Below, piece by piece: positions 1,257 through 12,767 of a stretch of DNA of 17,048 nt (position 1 is the stretch's first letter; every line of letters starts with the position of its first letter). Both the position numbers and the translations under genes were made by a program. Source of the stretch: Isotricha intestinalis (Eukaryota > Ciliophora > Litostomatea > Vestibuliferida > Isotrichidae). The stretch is taken from NCBI GenBank assembly GCA_023807065.1, contig JAJJLU010004182.1, forward strand, positions 1 through 17,048, given 5' to 3'. The notes beneath the pieces were generated by a model. That model ran no database searches, had not been told where the DNA came from, and saw only the letters and a list, made by a program, of their open reading frames with translations.

Positions 1257-1764
1257 TGTTTTTTTGTTTAATCAAAAAAATTGGAAAGATAATATTATGA
1301 TATATGTATTATTTATTTAATGAATTTTATTTTAAATAAAGAATTAAATGTTGTTTATTATTTTAGATGATGTTGTTTAGTTGCTGATTATTTTAAAATT
1401 CTTCTCAAAATATAACTTCAATGAATCAAAATATAAAAAAATTCATTAATATTTTATTTTAATAAAGAATTGTTTATTTTTTTCATCATTCCTTTAAAAG
1501 TTTATTCTTTGCTTTAGATATAGAATTTATTTTAATTATTTTTCTATAATAAATTCTATTTATCAATTATTATTTTTCTTCTCATTAAAAAATCACAATT
1601 ATTTTTATTTGAATCTTAAAATAGTATATTCAAAATAAAATTATAAACCATTTTAACATTTTTATTTAATCTAATTAGGATATAATTTATTTAATTGTAT
1701 TAAAATAAAGAACTTTTTTGTAATTTGAGCTTAACAAAAATCTTAAAAACTTTCAAACATTAAA

Positions 1765-1820
1765 AAGAGTTATATATCAAAAGATAGATTAAACATCTAT
1801 TTATGCAATTAATAACTCTT
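1765..1820. repeat. Nested inverted repeat (hairpin within hairpin)
   Basis: An outer 9-bp perfect stem pairs AAGAGTTAT (1765-1773) with ATAACTCTT (1812-1820). It encloses an inner stem, ATAGAT (1784-1789) with ATCTAT (1795-1800), around the 5-nt loop TAAAC. It lies about 110 nt before the zinc-finger start codon. It could be a structured leader, a small RNA, or chance in AT-rich DNA. It lacks the D and T arms of a tRNA. Confidence 0.35.
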
Positions 1821-1929
1821 CACCAAAATACTTACAATCTATTTGTTATATATTTCTAATAATTTTCAAACATTTTTAAATAATTAATTTAATTAATTTC
1901 TTCATTTTTAAACTTATTTTTTAAATATA

Positions 1930-4106
1930 ATGGAAGAAAAGGATAATAAATTTTCTCTTATTGACTCAGAACAAAATTATAATAATAATATTACAGTAGA
2001 AGATATGATAAGATGCCCTGAATGTTATTTAATTCCATTTATTTCAACTTATCAATCGAATGATGATACAATTATTATGTTAAAATGTTTAAATGATCAT
2101 ATAATAAATAAACCATTAAAAGAATTCTATTGGGAAATTAAAAATAATCAAAAGAATTCTATTAAATGTGAAAATTGTAATGAAAGAGAAATTGTAAAGT
2201 TAAATTATTGTGTTAAATGTTTAAAATTTTATTGTAATAATGAAAATCATTCTTTAAAAGAAAATCATAATATATTAATTCCTTTTAACAAAATAGACTC
2301 TTTTTGTTATGAAGAAAATCATAATAATTATAAAGTTAATAAATTTTGTTTTTCTCATAAGAGAAATATTTGTGATTATTGTGAAAATAATAATCATAAA
2401 GGAGATCAAATAGAAAAATTTTTTATAGGAGAAAAACAATTAGAAATTCTGGAAAATAATATAAAAAAAGCAAAAGATAATTTAATTAAAATGTCTAATT
2501 ATATAGATTTATATATATCAAGATTATTAATTTTAATTGACGAAATAAAAATAGAATTTAATATTTTTAAAAACAACAATGAATCAGAAATTAAATTATG
2601 TCAAGATTTAATTAACATTTATAAGTTAAAAAAAGAAAAAAAAGAACTTAATTATCAAATTATTCAAAATATTAAAAATATTTCTTTGAATCAACAAGAT
2701 TTTTCTGAGTTTAATACAAATATACTTTTAGAAATTAAAACTCAAATTATAAAACAGTTTAAAAAAATATCAATTAATATTAAAGAAAATGTTTTGAAAA
2801 GAGACAAAAATTTGACAATCAAAAATGATTTTAAAAGAGTAAAGGATGAAAAAAAAAAATGGGAATTAAAGTAAAAACATATTATTATTTCAGAGTATTG
2901 TTATTTTTAATCTAGTGTGTAAAATAATTTCATAAAATTTTGTCTGTAAGCAATAAAAAATAATTTTAAGAAAGTAAATATAAATTAAAAAATGAGTGTG
3001 TAAATAATAATAAATATATTAAAAGGATGTATTATTATTAATAATGTGAAGTATGTAATTTAAATATTAGAAAAAAGAAAGTAAAATAAAAATAAAAAAT
3101 AAAGTTTGTAAAAATAAATATTAAATCCAGTATGTAAAAGAATGAATTAAAAATAGGAAGTAAGAAACTTATAAAAACAAAGGGAGTTAAATAAATTAAA
3201 TAAAAAAAGAATGTAAAAATAAAAAATATTAAAAACAGTATGTATAAAAAAATAATCTTTTAGGAAGTAAAAAATTAATATAATGTTTAGCCTATAAGAT
3301 TATTTTATTAATTAATTATAAAATGAAAGAAAATATTAATTCATTATAGAATGTAAAATAATATGATTAATTTATAAAAGAATGTAATTAAAAAAATTAA
3401 TCAATAGTGGGTAGAAAATAATATTAATAATATTAGTGGGTAAGCAATTATTTTTTAATTATAGTATGTAATATATATATTATAATGAATTATTAGAAAG
3501 TCATAAATTAATATTTATTAATTATAGGAAGTAATAAATTATATTTGAAAGTGATATAGTGGGTATAATAATAATAATAATAATTATAGTATGTAAAATA
3601 ATTAATTATTAATAATATTTAGGCAGTAAAATAATAATTTTATAAACTTAAGGATGTAAATTTATATTAATACACATTTAGGATGTAATATATATTTTTG
3701 TAAAAAAAATACAGGCAGAAAGATAATATTTTAAATTTATTAGATTGTATGACTTTTATTTTATTATTGTAGTGTCATGAAGTATTCTTATTTAATATTT
3801 TAGAATGAATAATTTATTCTTTAATTTTATTAGGATGTAATTATATTTTAATATTAGCCTGTATTTAATTATTTAAAAATAATAGTGTGTATTTTTGATA
3901 ATTAAAACATTAGCCTGTAAAATTGAAAATAATAAAAGAAAGTAAATGATATTTAGATAAAGTCAGTGTGTAAATATTTATTTTCATTTAAGGGAGTAGA
4001 TAAATTAATATAATGATTAAAGAATGTATACAAATTAAATTAACTTTTAAGAAAGAAGTATTTTAATTGTAAATAATAAAAGAAAAAAAAAGCAAAAAAA
4101 GTTTAA
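1930..4106 (+). CDS. TRIM-like RING/B-box protein with micro-exon C-terminus
   Basis: The long first exon (1930-2870) encodes 313 residues plus two bases. A RING-like Cys/His cluster lies at residues 29-57 (C29, C32, C53, H57). A first B-box is at 80-113 (C80, C83, C94, C97, C102, H107, H113) and a second at 126-156 (C126, H131, C140, H143, C148, C151, H156). A coiled coil follows at about 165-290. This RING/B-box/coiled-coil order is that of TRIM proteins, usually ubiquitin E3 ligases or scaffolds; that role is inferred. Unspliced, the frame stops at once (TAA 2872-2874). A GT-AG intron begins at 2871, and the frame then continues through about 40 one-codon exons to TAA at 4104-4106, giving 364 residues. 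The added tail has CSKC after WELK, a W/Y-rich middle, then CPKCGNKE and a Lys-rich end, resembling a zinc ribbon. The start is the first ATG after an A/T-rich leader. No paralogue is visible here. Confidence 0.82.
2871..4106 (+). other. Array of about 40 single-codon exons and ~25-nt introns
   Basis: AG-NNN-GTA recurs about every 28 nt. First bases and codons: 2894 A (single base), 2916 TGT, 2943 TCT, 2971 AAA, 2997 TGT, 3026 GAT, 3052 TAT, 3078 AAA, 3105 TTT, 3131 TAT, 3157 GAA, 3183 GGA, 3210 AAT, 3239 TAT, 3264 GAA, 3291 CCT, 3350 AAT, 3381 AAT, 3408 TGG, 3437 TGG, 3465 TAT, 3497 AAA, 3528 GAA, 3560 TGG, 3590 TAT, 3623 GCA, 3653 GAT, 3682 GAT, 3715 GCA, 3744 ATT, 3773 TGT-CAT-GAA, 3804 AAT, 3834 GAT, 3858 CCT, 3886 TGT, 3914 CCT, 3939 AAA, 3967 TGT, 3993 GGA, 4023 AAT, 4052 AAA-GAA, 4083 final exon. 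The 42 introns are 21-30 nt except one of 56 (3294-3349). All but three begin GT (37 begin GTA) and all but one end AG. No triplet is a stop. Every codon ends in A or T except TGG. By my count the triplets are about 28% GC, far above the introns. Read-out by splicing, DNA excision or translational hopping is not decided by sequence. Confidence 0.9.
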
Positions 4107-4369
4107 AAGAGAAGAAAGAAAATTTAATCAAATTTTAATGATTTTTCTGATAAATAATTTATTTATTCAATATTATTTTTTTCTTTAAATATATTATTTT
4201 TTGAGTTTATAAAAGATATGATAAGCATTATTTTAAGAGTCACATATAAAATATATATAAATAAAAATAAAAGTTTTTCAAATGAAATAAAAATAAATAA
4301 AAAAAAATTAATATTTTAATAAACAAAAAATAAATCCAAAAAAAAAAAAAAAAAAACATAATTCAAAAA
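4107..4369. other. Intergenic spacer with long A-run before the PX gene
   Basis: No gene is seen. The micro-exon gene stops at 4106 and the next start is 4370. The AG-NNN-GTA pattern ends abruptly here. The last 100 nt are almost pure A/T with an uninterrupted A-run of about 18 (roughly 4339-4356), followed by an A-rich start context (CAAAAAATGG). An A-rich run before the ATG recurs at other genes of the window (10337, 14396, 15099). Confidence 0.5.
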
Positions 4370-9094: not shown

Positions 9095-10256
9095 ATGGGA
9101 AATGTAAATTTTAATATAAAATAATTTTAGTGTCAAGAACAATATGATAATTTAAAAAAAAATTATTTTGAATTTAAAGAAAAATTAAATACTGAATCAG
9201 AAAAAAACAATTCAGAAGATTTTTATAAATTTCAAAATACAGAAACAGAAACTTCGTTATTTCATTCACATAGACAAAAAGTAAATAAAAATAATATTTT
9301 AGTCATCATCAGATTTTTCTTCAAAATTAAGAAAGTATAATAATTATATTACAGCAAAATATTATTCAGAAGAAAATTTAGTTCAAATTTTAAATTGTTT
9401 TGAATTAAGTAAAAATACAATAAAAACAGAAGTTGGAATTAAGAATTTAAATGAAATAAAAGAATCATGTACTTTATATATAAATGGAATAAATAAAGAA
9501 TTTTGTTTAAAATATATTTTTAAAAAAAAAGAAAATAAAATAATATTAAAATTTAATAAACCTTTAATCAATGCAAATTACCTTTTTTGTTCATGTTCAT
9601 CATTAATAAAATTAGATTTATCAAATTTTAATTCTTCAAATATAATAAATATGAATTATATGTTTTCAAATTGTAATTCTTTAAAAGAAATATATTTAAA
9701 AAATTTTAATACAAATAATGTAACAGATATGAGAAATATGTTTGAAAATTGTTCTTCTTTAAAAATTATAGATTTAACAAATTTTAATACAAATAATGTT
9801 ATTGATATGAGTTGGATGTTTTGTAATTGTTCTTCTTTAATTAATTTAAATTTAAGTAATTTTATTACTGATAATGTAATTGATATGAGATGGATGTTTT
9901 GTTATTGTTCTTCTTTAAAAATATTAAATTTAAACTCTTTTAATACTCAAAATGTTAAAAATATGAGTTTTATGTTTTCTAATTGTTCAAATTTAATTTC
10001 TCTATATGTAAATAATTTTAATACTAATAATGTTTTAAATATGAGTAATATGTTTTATAATTGTTCTTCTTTGAAAAGTTTAGATTTATCTAATTTTTAT
10101 ACTTTTAATGTTATTAATATGAATGATATGTTTAGAAAATGTAGTTCATTAATGTTTTTAGATTTGTCAAATTTTACTTACAAAAAAGTTAAAGATAAAG
10201 GCTATTCAATTTCAGATTTTCATAAAGGATGTGATATAATCACGAATGAAATATAA
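9095..10256 (+). CDS. BspA/DUF285 repeat protein with MGNC lipidation signal, three exons
   Basis: A 370-residue protein assembled from exons 9095-9103, 9131-9280 and 9303-10256. The introns, 9104-9130 (27 nt) and 9281-9302 (22 nt), both start GTAAAT, end TTTTAG and keep the frame exactly. Exon 1 encodes only MGN and exon 2 starts with Cys, so the mature N-terminus is MGNC, a classic N-myristoylation (Gly2) plus palmitoylation (Cys4) signal. The middle (about 54-146) is polar. Residues 147-354 are eight consecutive 26-residue DUF285 repeats of the type MFxNCSSLxxLDLSNFNTxNVxxM; the eighth is degenerate. Such repeats occur in Mycoplasma and gut bacteria and in anaerobic protists, usually as surface or adhesion proteins. 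Here there is no signal peptide, so an inner membrane-face location is predicted. Any function, such as ligand binding, is inference. Confidence 0.85.
9582..10205 (+). repeat. Eight tandem 78-bp units (DUF285 repeats)
   Basis: The units repeat with an exact 78-bp period, starting at 9582, 9660, 9738 and so on to 10128, with no indels. Each encodes one 26-residue repeat beginning Met/Leu-Phe and carrying C-SSL and NF-T-NV signatures. Unit 1 begins LF and unit 8 loses the NVxxM end. The units differ in many bases, so this is an old expansion held to a strict length rather than a recent duplication. Confidence 0.88.
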
Positions 10257-12377: not shown

Positions 12378-12690
12378 ATGATGATTAATTATTATTAATT
12401 TGGAAGAAGAAGGAACAACTACTTTAAAATTAATTTATTTTCAAAAAAAGAAATATTTAAAACAATTGATAATGAATTTATTGTTGGAATAAATATAAAT
12501 GGAAATAAAACAGTATATTAGGAGGATTATAGTAAAGATAGAAGAATATATCATACTTATAATTATGAATAAATTTAAGAAATTGAAGGTGCTCATCATT
12601 ATGATATATTAAAGGATTTATAAAAAATGGTGTAATTGTTTCTTTTTTTGAAGATAATACTTTTTTATTTGAAGTTAATGATTAATTTTT
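12378..12690 (+). pseudogene. Probable decayed protein-coding gene, family unknown
   Basis: From ATG 12378 one frame reads like a protein (for example NEFIVGININGNKTVY and RRIYHTYNYE, then EIEGAHHYDILK) but is broken by TAA 12396, TAG 12519, TAA 12570 and TAA 12576. After a shift near 12601-12625 it continues as GFIKNGVIVSFFEDNTFLFEVND to about 12685. Stop density is lower than in true intergenic DNA here, and G/C content is higher. Every stop in the first frame is TAA or TAG, at places where Gln would fit, and that part contains no CAA. This is what CAA-to-TAA decay would give; a fragment from a TAR=Gln organism is the other reading. I do not recognise the family. Confidence 0.45.
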
Positions 12691-12767
12691 TTTTTTCTAA
12701 TGAATATATAAATATTAATATTATGAATTTTTAAATATTTTTAGATTATGATTTTATAAATAAAAAT

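Follow-up and report, generated by a model that had tools for sequence, protein, structure and literature searches.

The locus described here raises the question of how finely introns can divide the coding sequence of a gene. It lies on contig JAJJLU010004182.1, a 17,048-nucleotide (nt) stretch of DNA that was analysed whole and is referred to as the window (contig C1618 of a 57.3-Mb assembly), where the tail of a gene on the + strand is occupied by an array of AG-NNN-GTA units. The original prediction, made from the window alone, was that the triplets in this array are single-codon exons. Comparisons within the window and across the assembly indicate that the array very probably forms the 3′ portion of a coding gene whose codons nearly all stand as separate exons and whose spacers are removed as spliceosomal introns.

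The window has 38 copies of the motif AGNNNGTA on its + strand, 32 of which fall inside 2865-4110, and three on its - strand, none of them in that region. In 1000 dinucleotide shuffles of the array region the mean was 1.87 and the maximum 8. When spacings were scanned only a spacing of 3 was enriched (32 occurrences), with spacings of 0-2 and 4-12 giving 0-2 each. A phase-aware parser gave the array region a score of 185 with 42 introns, compared with no more than 1.2 in 300 shuffles and 0 for the reverse complement, and the predicted array in the gene tail was thus confirmed by the counts, the shuffles and the parser score. The parser was tuned to 16% guanine plus cytosine (GC) and its scores are valid in AT-rich DNA only, with composition-matched shuffles as the control. 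A pattern scan of viral contigs gave at least 80 loci, with one match in 79 of the 80 listed; the 79 arrays that the parser then returned in those 80 loci were meaningless in that higher-GC DNA and were not used.

The gene of the window runs on the + strand from an ATG at 1930 to a TAA at 4104-4106 (1930-4106), with 365 residues in 44 exons separated by 43 introns of 21-30 nt. The exons are 941 and 1 nt long, followed by 39 of 3 nt, with one of 9 nt and one of 6 nt among them, and a last exon of 24 nt. Intron 1 interrupts the final codon of WELK in phase 2, and every intron after it lies in phase 0. The parts of the gene, in window positions, are as follows.

1930..2870, + strand: exon 1, 941 nt, B-box-like N-terminal 313 residues plus 2 bases, ending TGG GAA TTA AA (phase 2)
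2871..2893, + strand: intron 1, phase 2, GTAAA..TCAG, at a position common to 20 arrays including the window
2894..2894, + strand: one-nucleotide exon A, third base of a Lys codon, with a 1-nt exon here in 20 arrays
2895..2915, + strand: intron 2, phase 0 onward
2916..3293, + strand: exons 3-17, single codons C S K C D Y K F Y E G N Y E P, with their introns
3294..3772, + strand: variable stretch, exons 18-32, single codons N N N W W Y K E W Y A D D A I, with their introns
3773..3781, + strand: nine-nt exon TGT CAT GAA (C H E)
3804..4025, + strand: exons 34-42, single codons N D P C P K C G N (second Cys knuckle), with their introns
4052..4057, + strand: six-nt exon AAA GAA (K E)
4083..4106, + strand: last exon, 24 nt, KKKAKKV and the TAA stop

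The joined tail reads WELKCSKCDYKFYEGNYEPNNNWWYKEWYADDAICHENDPCPKCGNKEKKKAKKV. The earlier parse held for the lone codons and for the exons of 9 nt, of 6 nt and ending in TAA, and needed amendment in its details: there are 43 introns rather than 42, and 39 exons of 3 nt, one codon more than the 38 first counted. The array opens with the phase-2 intron 2871-2893, the 1-nt exon A at 2894 and the intron 2895-2915, which gives WELK-C at the junction. What had been removed as a single 56-nt piece is two introns flanking a TCT codon at 2943-2945, giving CSKC; this Ser codon requires a GT..TG intron at 2919-2942. Five of the 43 window introns lack GT-AG ends. Non-canonical ends are found in the variable stretch at 3294-3321 (AT..AA), 3325-3349 and 3718-3743 (GA..AG), and the intron 3807-3833 is GA..AG. 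The first AAT codon (3322-3324), flanked by two non-canonical ends, is the least certain. In the family alignment exons 3-17 hold the first Cys knuckle and an FWKGE-like motif, and the window spacing C-x5-CPxC is common to 17 other arrays. Exon 1 matched Pfam zf-B_box with an E value of 4.7e-4 and 20.7 bits, under the 24.1-bit cut-off.

When the assembly was searched for other AG-N(3)-GTA arrays many were found, so the window gene belongs to a genome-wide class of genes rather than being a single case. A run of three AGDNNGTA units with the spacing of the arrays gave 1161 matches versus 77 for the reversed pattern. A version starting with the Cys codon TGT gave 97 matches on 52 contigs, and a Cys-Pro version nine matches on nine contigs, with none for the reversed control in either case. 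Arrays of at least eight introns were present in 29 of 31 parsed stretches, the window included, all chosen via triplet-pattern matches that in some cases contained TGT. Of 1415 internal exons, 1333 (94%) are 3 nt long, 32 are 6 nt, 21 are 1 nt, 11 are 9 nt and 18 have other lengths; the 1376 with lengths of 3, 6 or 9 are very small symmetrical exons, like those of micro-exon genes. The GT-AG introns of the arrays have a median length of 25 nt (5-95% range 22-30).

The share of the gene made up of micro-exons differs between loci (numbered with the prefix L). It is the tail only in the window gene and most of the frame in L060 and L069, where the frame that opens with a Met codon, assumed to be the start, and closes with a stop counts 93 and 79 codons, of which 63 and 60, respectively, form separate exons. 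L079 (contig C1364, 4900-6900), which specifies another protein with several Cys pairs, includes 65 single-codon exons within 2 kb; its Met coincides with base 1 of the stretch read and its apparent stop is a truncated intron, so that both ends are only putative. In 24 of 30 parses the end lies at least 40 nt inside the stretch, while in six (L067, L068, L070, L072, L073 and L079) it is nearer the edge of the stretch or contig and the stops are or may be artefacts. In the family alignment the final residues of L070, L072 and L073 are therefore unsafe. Five arrays are mainly in phase 2 (L049, L050, L053, L055 and L057, the last with mixed phases), the phase call in L050, L053 and L055 following from a 700-900-nt upstream exon. 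By eye, the phase-2 arrays of L050 and L055 look to be the ends of trypsin-like proteins. L053 carries its array in mid-gene, with a last exon of 292 nt after it.

The reading of the triplets as coding exons of one codon each is supported by a domain conserved in paralogous arrays whose introns have diverged and by a lack of stops that depends on frame, and further by a conserved synonymous 1-nt exon and the absence of a contiguous FWKGE copy from the assembly. Once joined, the triplets of most phase-0 arrays encode a single domain, WE[LI][KR]CxxCxYxFWKGExxP-variable-Cx5CPxCG, for which the fuller consensus is WE[LI][KR]C..C.YQFWKGE.EP, a variable stretch and IC.....CP.CG. Of 30 arrays, 18 show the spacing C-x5-C[PS]xC, and the 12 in which it fails are the five phase-2 arrays, L079 (the other protein), three that are cut off (L067, L068 and L073) and three that are without the first Cys of this spacing (L052, L064 and L076). 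Codons and introns were compared in 16 of 29 arrays, picked by the start W[EG][LI][RK]CxxC; outside the comparison were the five phase-2 arrays, four in which the start was not seen (L061, L066, L077 and L078) and four that deviate (L052, L065, L067 and L071). In the 16 arrays the downstream Gly and Pro are invariant via synonymous codons (GGA 12, GGG 2, GGT 2; CCA 11, CCT 5), and introns at the same position are 61-69% identical versus 63% for different positions. The near-identical pair L061/L062 differs at 1 of 39 codon sites versus 20 of 303 intron sites. The 1-nt exon found at the same place in 20 arrays is A in 16 and G in four, synonymous for Lys or Arg. A second place for such an exon in L062, with a non-AG acceptor, is probably an artefact.

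The window triplets are richer in G/C than the spacers, as first noted, with 27% GC in the 3-nt exons versus 6% in the intron interiors. The reported freedom from stops was also reproduced: there are none among the 39 exons of 3 nt, for which the parser forbids stops, and also none among 35 raw AGNNNGT triplets (P of about 0.008 by intron composition). The window taken alone makes this a moderate test, and the other arrays make it a strong one. Raw AGNNNGT[AT] matches held stop triplets in 3 of 1042 cases in the 25 mainly phase-0 arrays versus 18 of 141 in the five mainly phase-2 arrays, with the phase label coming from the parse. In phase-2 arrays such triplets are not read as codons, and the lack of stops is thus frame dependent. 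The domain, with its two Cys knuckles (CxxC ... CPxCG) around a variable loop, is probably zinc-binding. CxxC and CPxC are present, and the best Pfam match was Zn_Ribbon_1 (E 0.0081, 16.4 bits, under the 25-bit cut-off); the best match of the spliced domain in the PDB was ribosomal L37Ae (E 5.6e-4), over short stretches only. The Cys-knuckle domain is joined to differing N-terminal parts, B-box-like in the window and, judged by eye, kinase-like or other elsewhere.

Several observations weigh against this interpretation. An alignment search of 5.8 billion proteins with the joined domain gave 352 candidates, none at E<=0.01, and a full-length search returned 16 proteins, with the tail in none of the 14 inspected. 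Relatives P0121-P0135 match the B-box-like N-terminal part of the window protein, and P0121 and P0134 stop at WELK/WEIR, where the array begins. A homologue ending at residue 314 had been named beforehand as counter-evidence, and P0121, which is 99% identical over the aligned part and ends ...KKKWELK, does end there. This is where the genomic frame of the window meets a TAA inside the first intron, and we take P0121 to be a genomic open reading frame rather than a refutation. In addition, the parser forbids stops and favours 3-nt exons, no clear branch-point consensus was found in the positional composition of array introns, and stop-free introns of length 3n number 55 versus 65.3 expected, a weak depletion. 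The abundance of Cys in the arrays comes partly from selecting stretches by TGT patterns. Finally, while 1276 of 1442 proposed introns have GT-AG ends, with donors mostly GTAA/GTAT and acceptors mostly ATAG/TTAG/AAAG, the other 166 (11.5%) do not, and have chiefly AT-AG, GA-AG, GT-TG, TT-AG or AT-AA.

These 166 units would fit an alternative in which the triplets code but many of the exons are skipped in the mRNA, so that the real protein is shorter or mixed. Exons of 3 nt leave exon definition no room, which also favours skipping, and part of the non-GT-AG introns may be over-reach of the parser. If the non-canonical units were skipped the frame would be kept and length alone would change. 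However, the C-x5-C spacing, which is not known to the parser, comes out right in nine of the 18 arrays that have it only when non-canonical introns are included (window, L051, L060, L065, L066, L071, L075, L077 and L078), and in the nine others with canonical introns there. A non-canonical donor (AT, TT or GA) also follows the invariant Pro in 8 of 16 arrays (window, 3291-3321; L051, L059, L062, L063, L068, L073 and L076). Because this spacing and the Pro-adjacent non-canonical ends recur, the sequences suggest that many of the non-canonical ends are really used, and extensive skipping is unlikely.

A further alternative is that chance produced the triplets and that the array amounts to a single large intron or to a decaying minisatellite that is not translated. 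Near-identical units of about 31 nt in some arrays and genomic relatives that end at WELK/WEIR are in keeping with this, but the conserved domain, the synonymous changes, the frame-dependent lack of stops and the smaller number of codon than intron differences in the near-identical pair leave it with little probability.

Joining could instead occur in the DNA, with the spacers being internal eliminated sequences (IESs) cut at macronucleus formation and the triplets retained. A eukaryotic small-subunit ribosomal RNA of 1642 nt is present in the assembly, which we take to read as ciliate and, from its shortness, as litostome. The telomere repeat (CCCCAAT)n gave 1586 matches versus none for the reversed control and, among the matches listed, lies at contig ends. 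It was observed at both ends of C2, C4, C7, C11, C12, C14, C17, C19, C21, C24 and other contigs. The assembly holds complete, short, telomere-capped chromosomes and looks like the working-nucleus (macronuclear) genome of a gut ciliate. The trichostome Muniziella cunhai is described as having the same telomere repeat, an AT-rich genome (~26% GC) and the standard code (PMC11316547). A source that looks ciliate is a point in favour of DNA excision, as are the ~11% of proposed ends that deviate from GT-AG and a spacer length that we take to resemble that of short Paramecium IESs. Against it, telomere repeats flank two of the three array-bearing contigs checked, C2 (90 kb) and C21 (45 kb), and stand at one end of the third, C18. 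IESs would be absent from macronuclear chromosomes, and at least these arrays sit in short chromosomes capped by telomeres. The boundaries are moreover mostly GT-AG, not TA. A contiguous FWKGE codon pattern had two matches in 57 Mb, both in stop-broken frames with no Cys motif nearby, and there was no joined copy among proteins; the protein-query search for an unsplit copy had no positive control, and the codon-pattern search is the better evidence. As arrays stand on telomere-capped contigs and no joined copy was found, excision at the DNA level is very unlikely, and joining should occur at the RNA level or later.

Translational bypassing, in which ribosomes pass over spacers retained in the mRNA, as with the mitochondrial byps of Magnusiomyces, would join the triplets equally and fits protein searches that gave no joined form, but it is highly improbable given that the spacers share GT-AG ends and lengths with the introns of a neighbouring DUF285 gene, that U6 small nuclear RNA is present (two copies, 108 bits, gathering score 44), and that a 1-nt exon after a phase-2 spacer and whole phase-2 arrays are hard to fit with codon hopping.

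9095..10256, + strand: comparison gene, DUF285, 370 aa, Pfam E 1.8e-36

The tiny introns of the DUF285 gene (9104-9130, 27 nt, and 9281-9302, 22 nt) lie between ordinary exons and were picked by eye, after which the exons were joined and translated. The protein begins MGNC, a possible N-myristoylation start. Further along the + strand of the window, at 12380-12700, a protein-like stretch GRRRNNYFKINLFSKKEIFKTIDNEFIVGININGNKTVY is followed by pieces interrupted by TAA/TAG, and is perhaps a decayed gene.

The exon grammar of the arrays, their recurrence, the conservation at the protein level, the frame dependence and the presence on telomere-capped contigs are established by the sequence. We infer that the spliceosome removes the array spacers. 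Under spliceosomal removal, the spacers of 21-30 nt would be introns like the tiny ones of the DUF285 gene, and the 1-nt exon, the 39 lone codons and the 9, 6 and 24-nt exons would join in one frame to give a C-terminal two-knuckle domain. Since sites 1-3 nt apart could hardly be occupied together, splicing would be sequential, most simply 5′ to 3′, so that every step would add one codon to the long upstream exon and bring up the donor that follows. This would be like recursive splicing leaving one codon per step. In recursive splicing proper, each step regenerates a donor beside the join and leaves nothing behind, whereas here each step would leave one codon. As nearly all exons are 3 nt long and in one phase, skipped exons would cost residues without a frameshift. 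Selection for frame-keeping exon skipping explains the multiples of three, but not the scarcity of 6 and 9.

In part of the arrays the introns may have multiplied by introner-like copying. Tandem duplication of the whole codon plus intron unit was rejected as the main origin, as the codons beside near-identical introns (>=90%) are mostly unrelated. Codon nucleotide identity for such introns versus other pairs was 0.38 versus 0.36 in L079 (369 pairs), 0.37 versus 0.36 in L062 (333), 0.36 versus 0.33 in L067 (273), 0.39 versus 0.35 in L066 (198) and 0.45 versus 0.34 in L060 (82). The share of identical codons is raised beside near-identical introns (0.14 versus 0.07 in L062, 0.11 versus 0.07 in L079 and 0.16 versus 0.06 in L060), which points to some unit duplication as well. 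In L073 (7 pairs) and L076 (5 pairs) the codons beside near-identical introns are alike. Block duplication contributes to array growth too, as about 12 codons together with their introns (SWVKDLGDEE..) recur as a unit in L062 at 1271-3399. Near-identical array pieces were observed twice on one contig (C1885:126/8680 and C1406:12256/16084) or on two (C1318:22706/C1541:17187), and are possibly recent duplications or alleles.

Clustering by single linkage, for which cluster edges are loose, placed 151 introns from 14 arrays in a 28-nt family that follows 23 different codons, 63 from four arrays in a 27-nt family that follows 24, and 25 in a third cluster that follows 10. Singletons account for 1091 of 1417 distinct introns, and many arrays are without copies. 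Adjacent codons are 24-54% identical depending on the array, like other pairs, with no sign of a target-site duplication of codons. In the copy-rich arrays we infer from these comparisons that copying or homogenisation mostly involved the introns and spared the triplets next to them, in an introner-like manner, while most arrays, that of the window included, have few or no copies and may be older. A fuller picture, which we put forward tentatively as possible rather than probable, is of a class of ciliate nuclear genes with introners at codon spacing, ratchet splicing with relaxed ends and codon skipping that diversifies the variable loop.

Known systems resemble the arrays in part. Schistosome micro-exon genes are described as having a coding region that consists mostly of very small symmetrical exons, which permits variants with a few residues' difference (PMC4350168). 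The arrays share the former property, but 3 nt is the exact length of 94% of their internal exons, there are 1-nt exons, the introns are ~25 nt and the host is ciliate-like. A 1-nt exon is described as spliced in Arabidopsis APC11, in a report that gives 3 nt as the smallest characterised before (PMC4674806), and a 3-bp micro-exon is described in Drosophila homothorax (PMC7392893). These tiny exons stand singly among normal ones, whereas here dozens are consecutive. Ciliate introns are likewise very short and AU-rich, with lengths given as 15-16 nt in Stentor and medians as 15-72 bp across ciliates, and those of Stentor are described as having no strong branch-point consensus (PMC9505925, PMC10946202); unlike these, which lie between ordinary exons, the array introns occur at nearly every codon boundary and some are without GT-AG. 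Introners are described as near-identical intron copies at many sites (PMC9860276), as are the families of 151 and 63 near-identical members after unrelated codons, but here the copies are one codon apart, in constant phase and with no sign of codon target-site duplication. No description of single-codon exon arrays was found in searches of open-licence PubMed Central papers, which gave either nothing or, among the entries listed, work on usual micro-exons, tiny introns and other topics, and the gene structure is far more extreme than any known to us.

Gene finders can overlook whole domains of this kind, as the predicted relatives P0121 and P0134 stop at the start of the array. Models of splicing assume an exon big enough for its flanking sites to be recognised, and here there are dozens of consecutive 3-nt exons and a 1-nt exon, separated by introns of about 25 nt, so that the codon would be the sole exonic sequence and the junctions would need to form in order. 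If confirmed, these arrays would set the lower limit of exon definition, and would provide a natural test bed for sequential splicing and, through their non-GT-AG ends, for splice-site fidelity. They would also offer a tractable case of intron multiplication, because near-identical introns follow unrelated codons within one gene.

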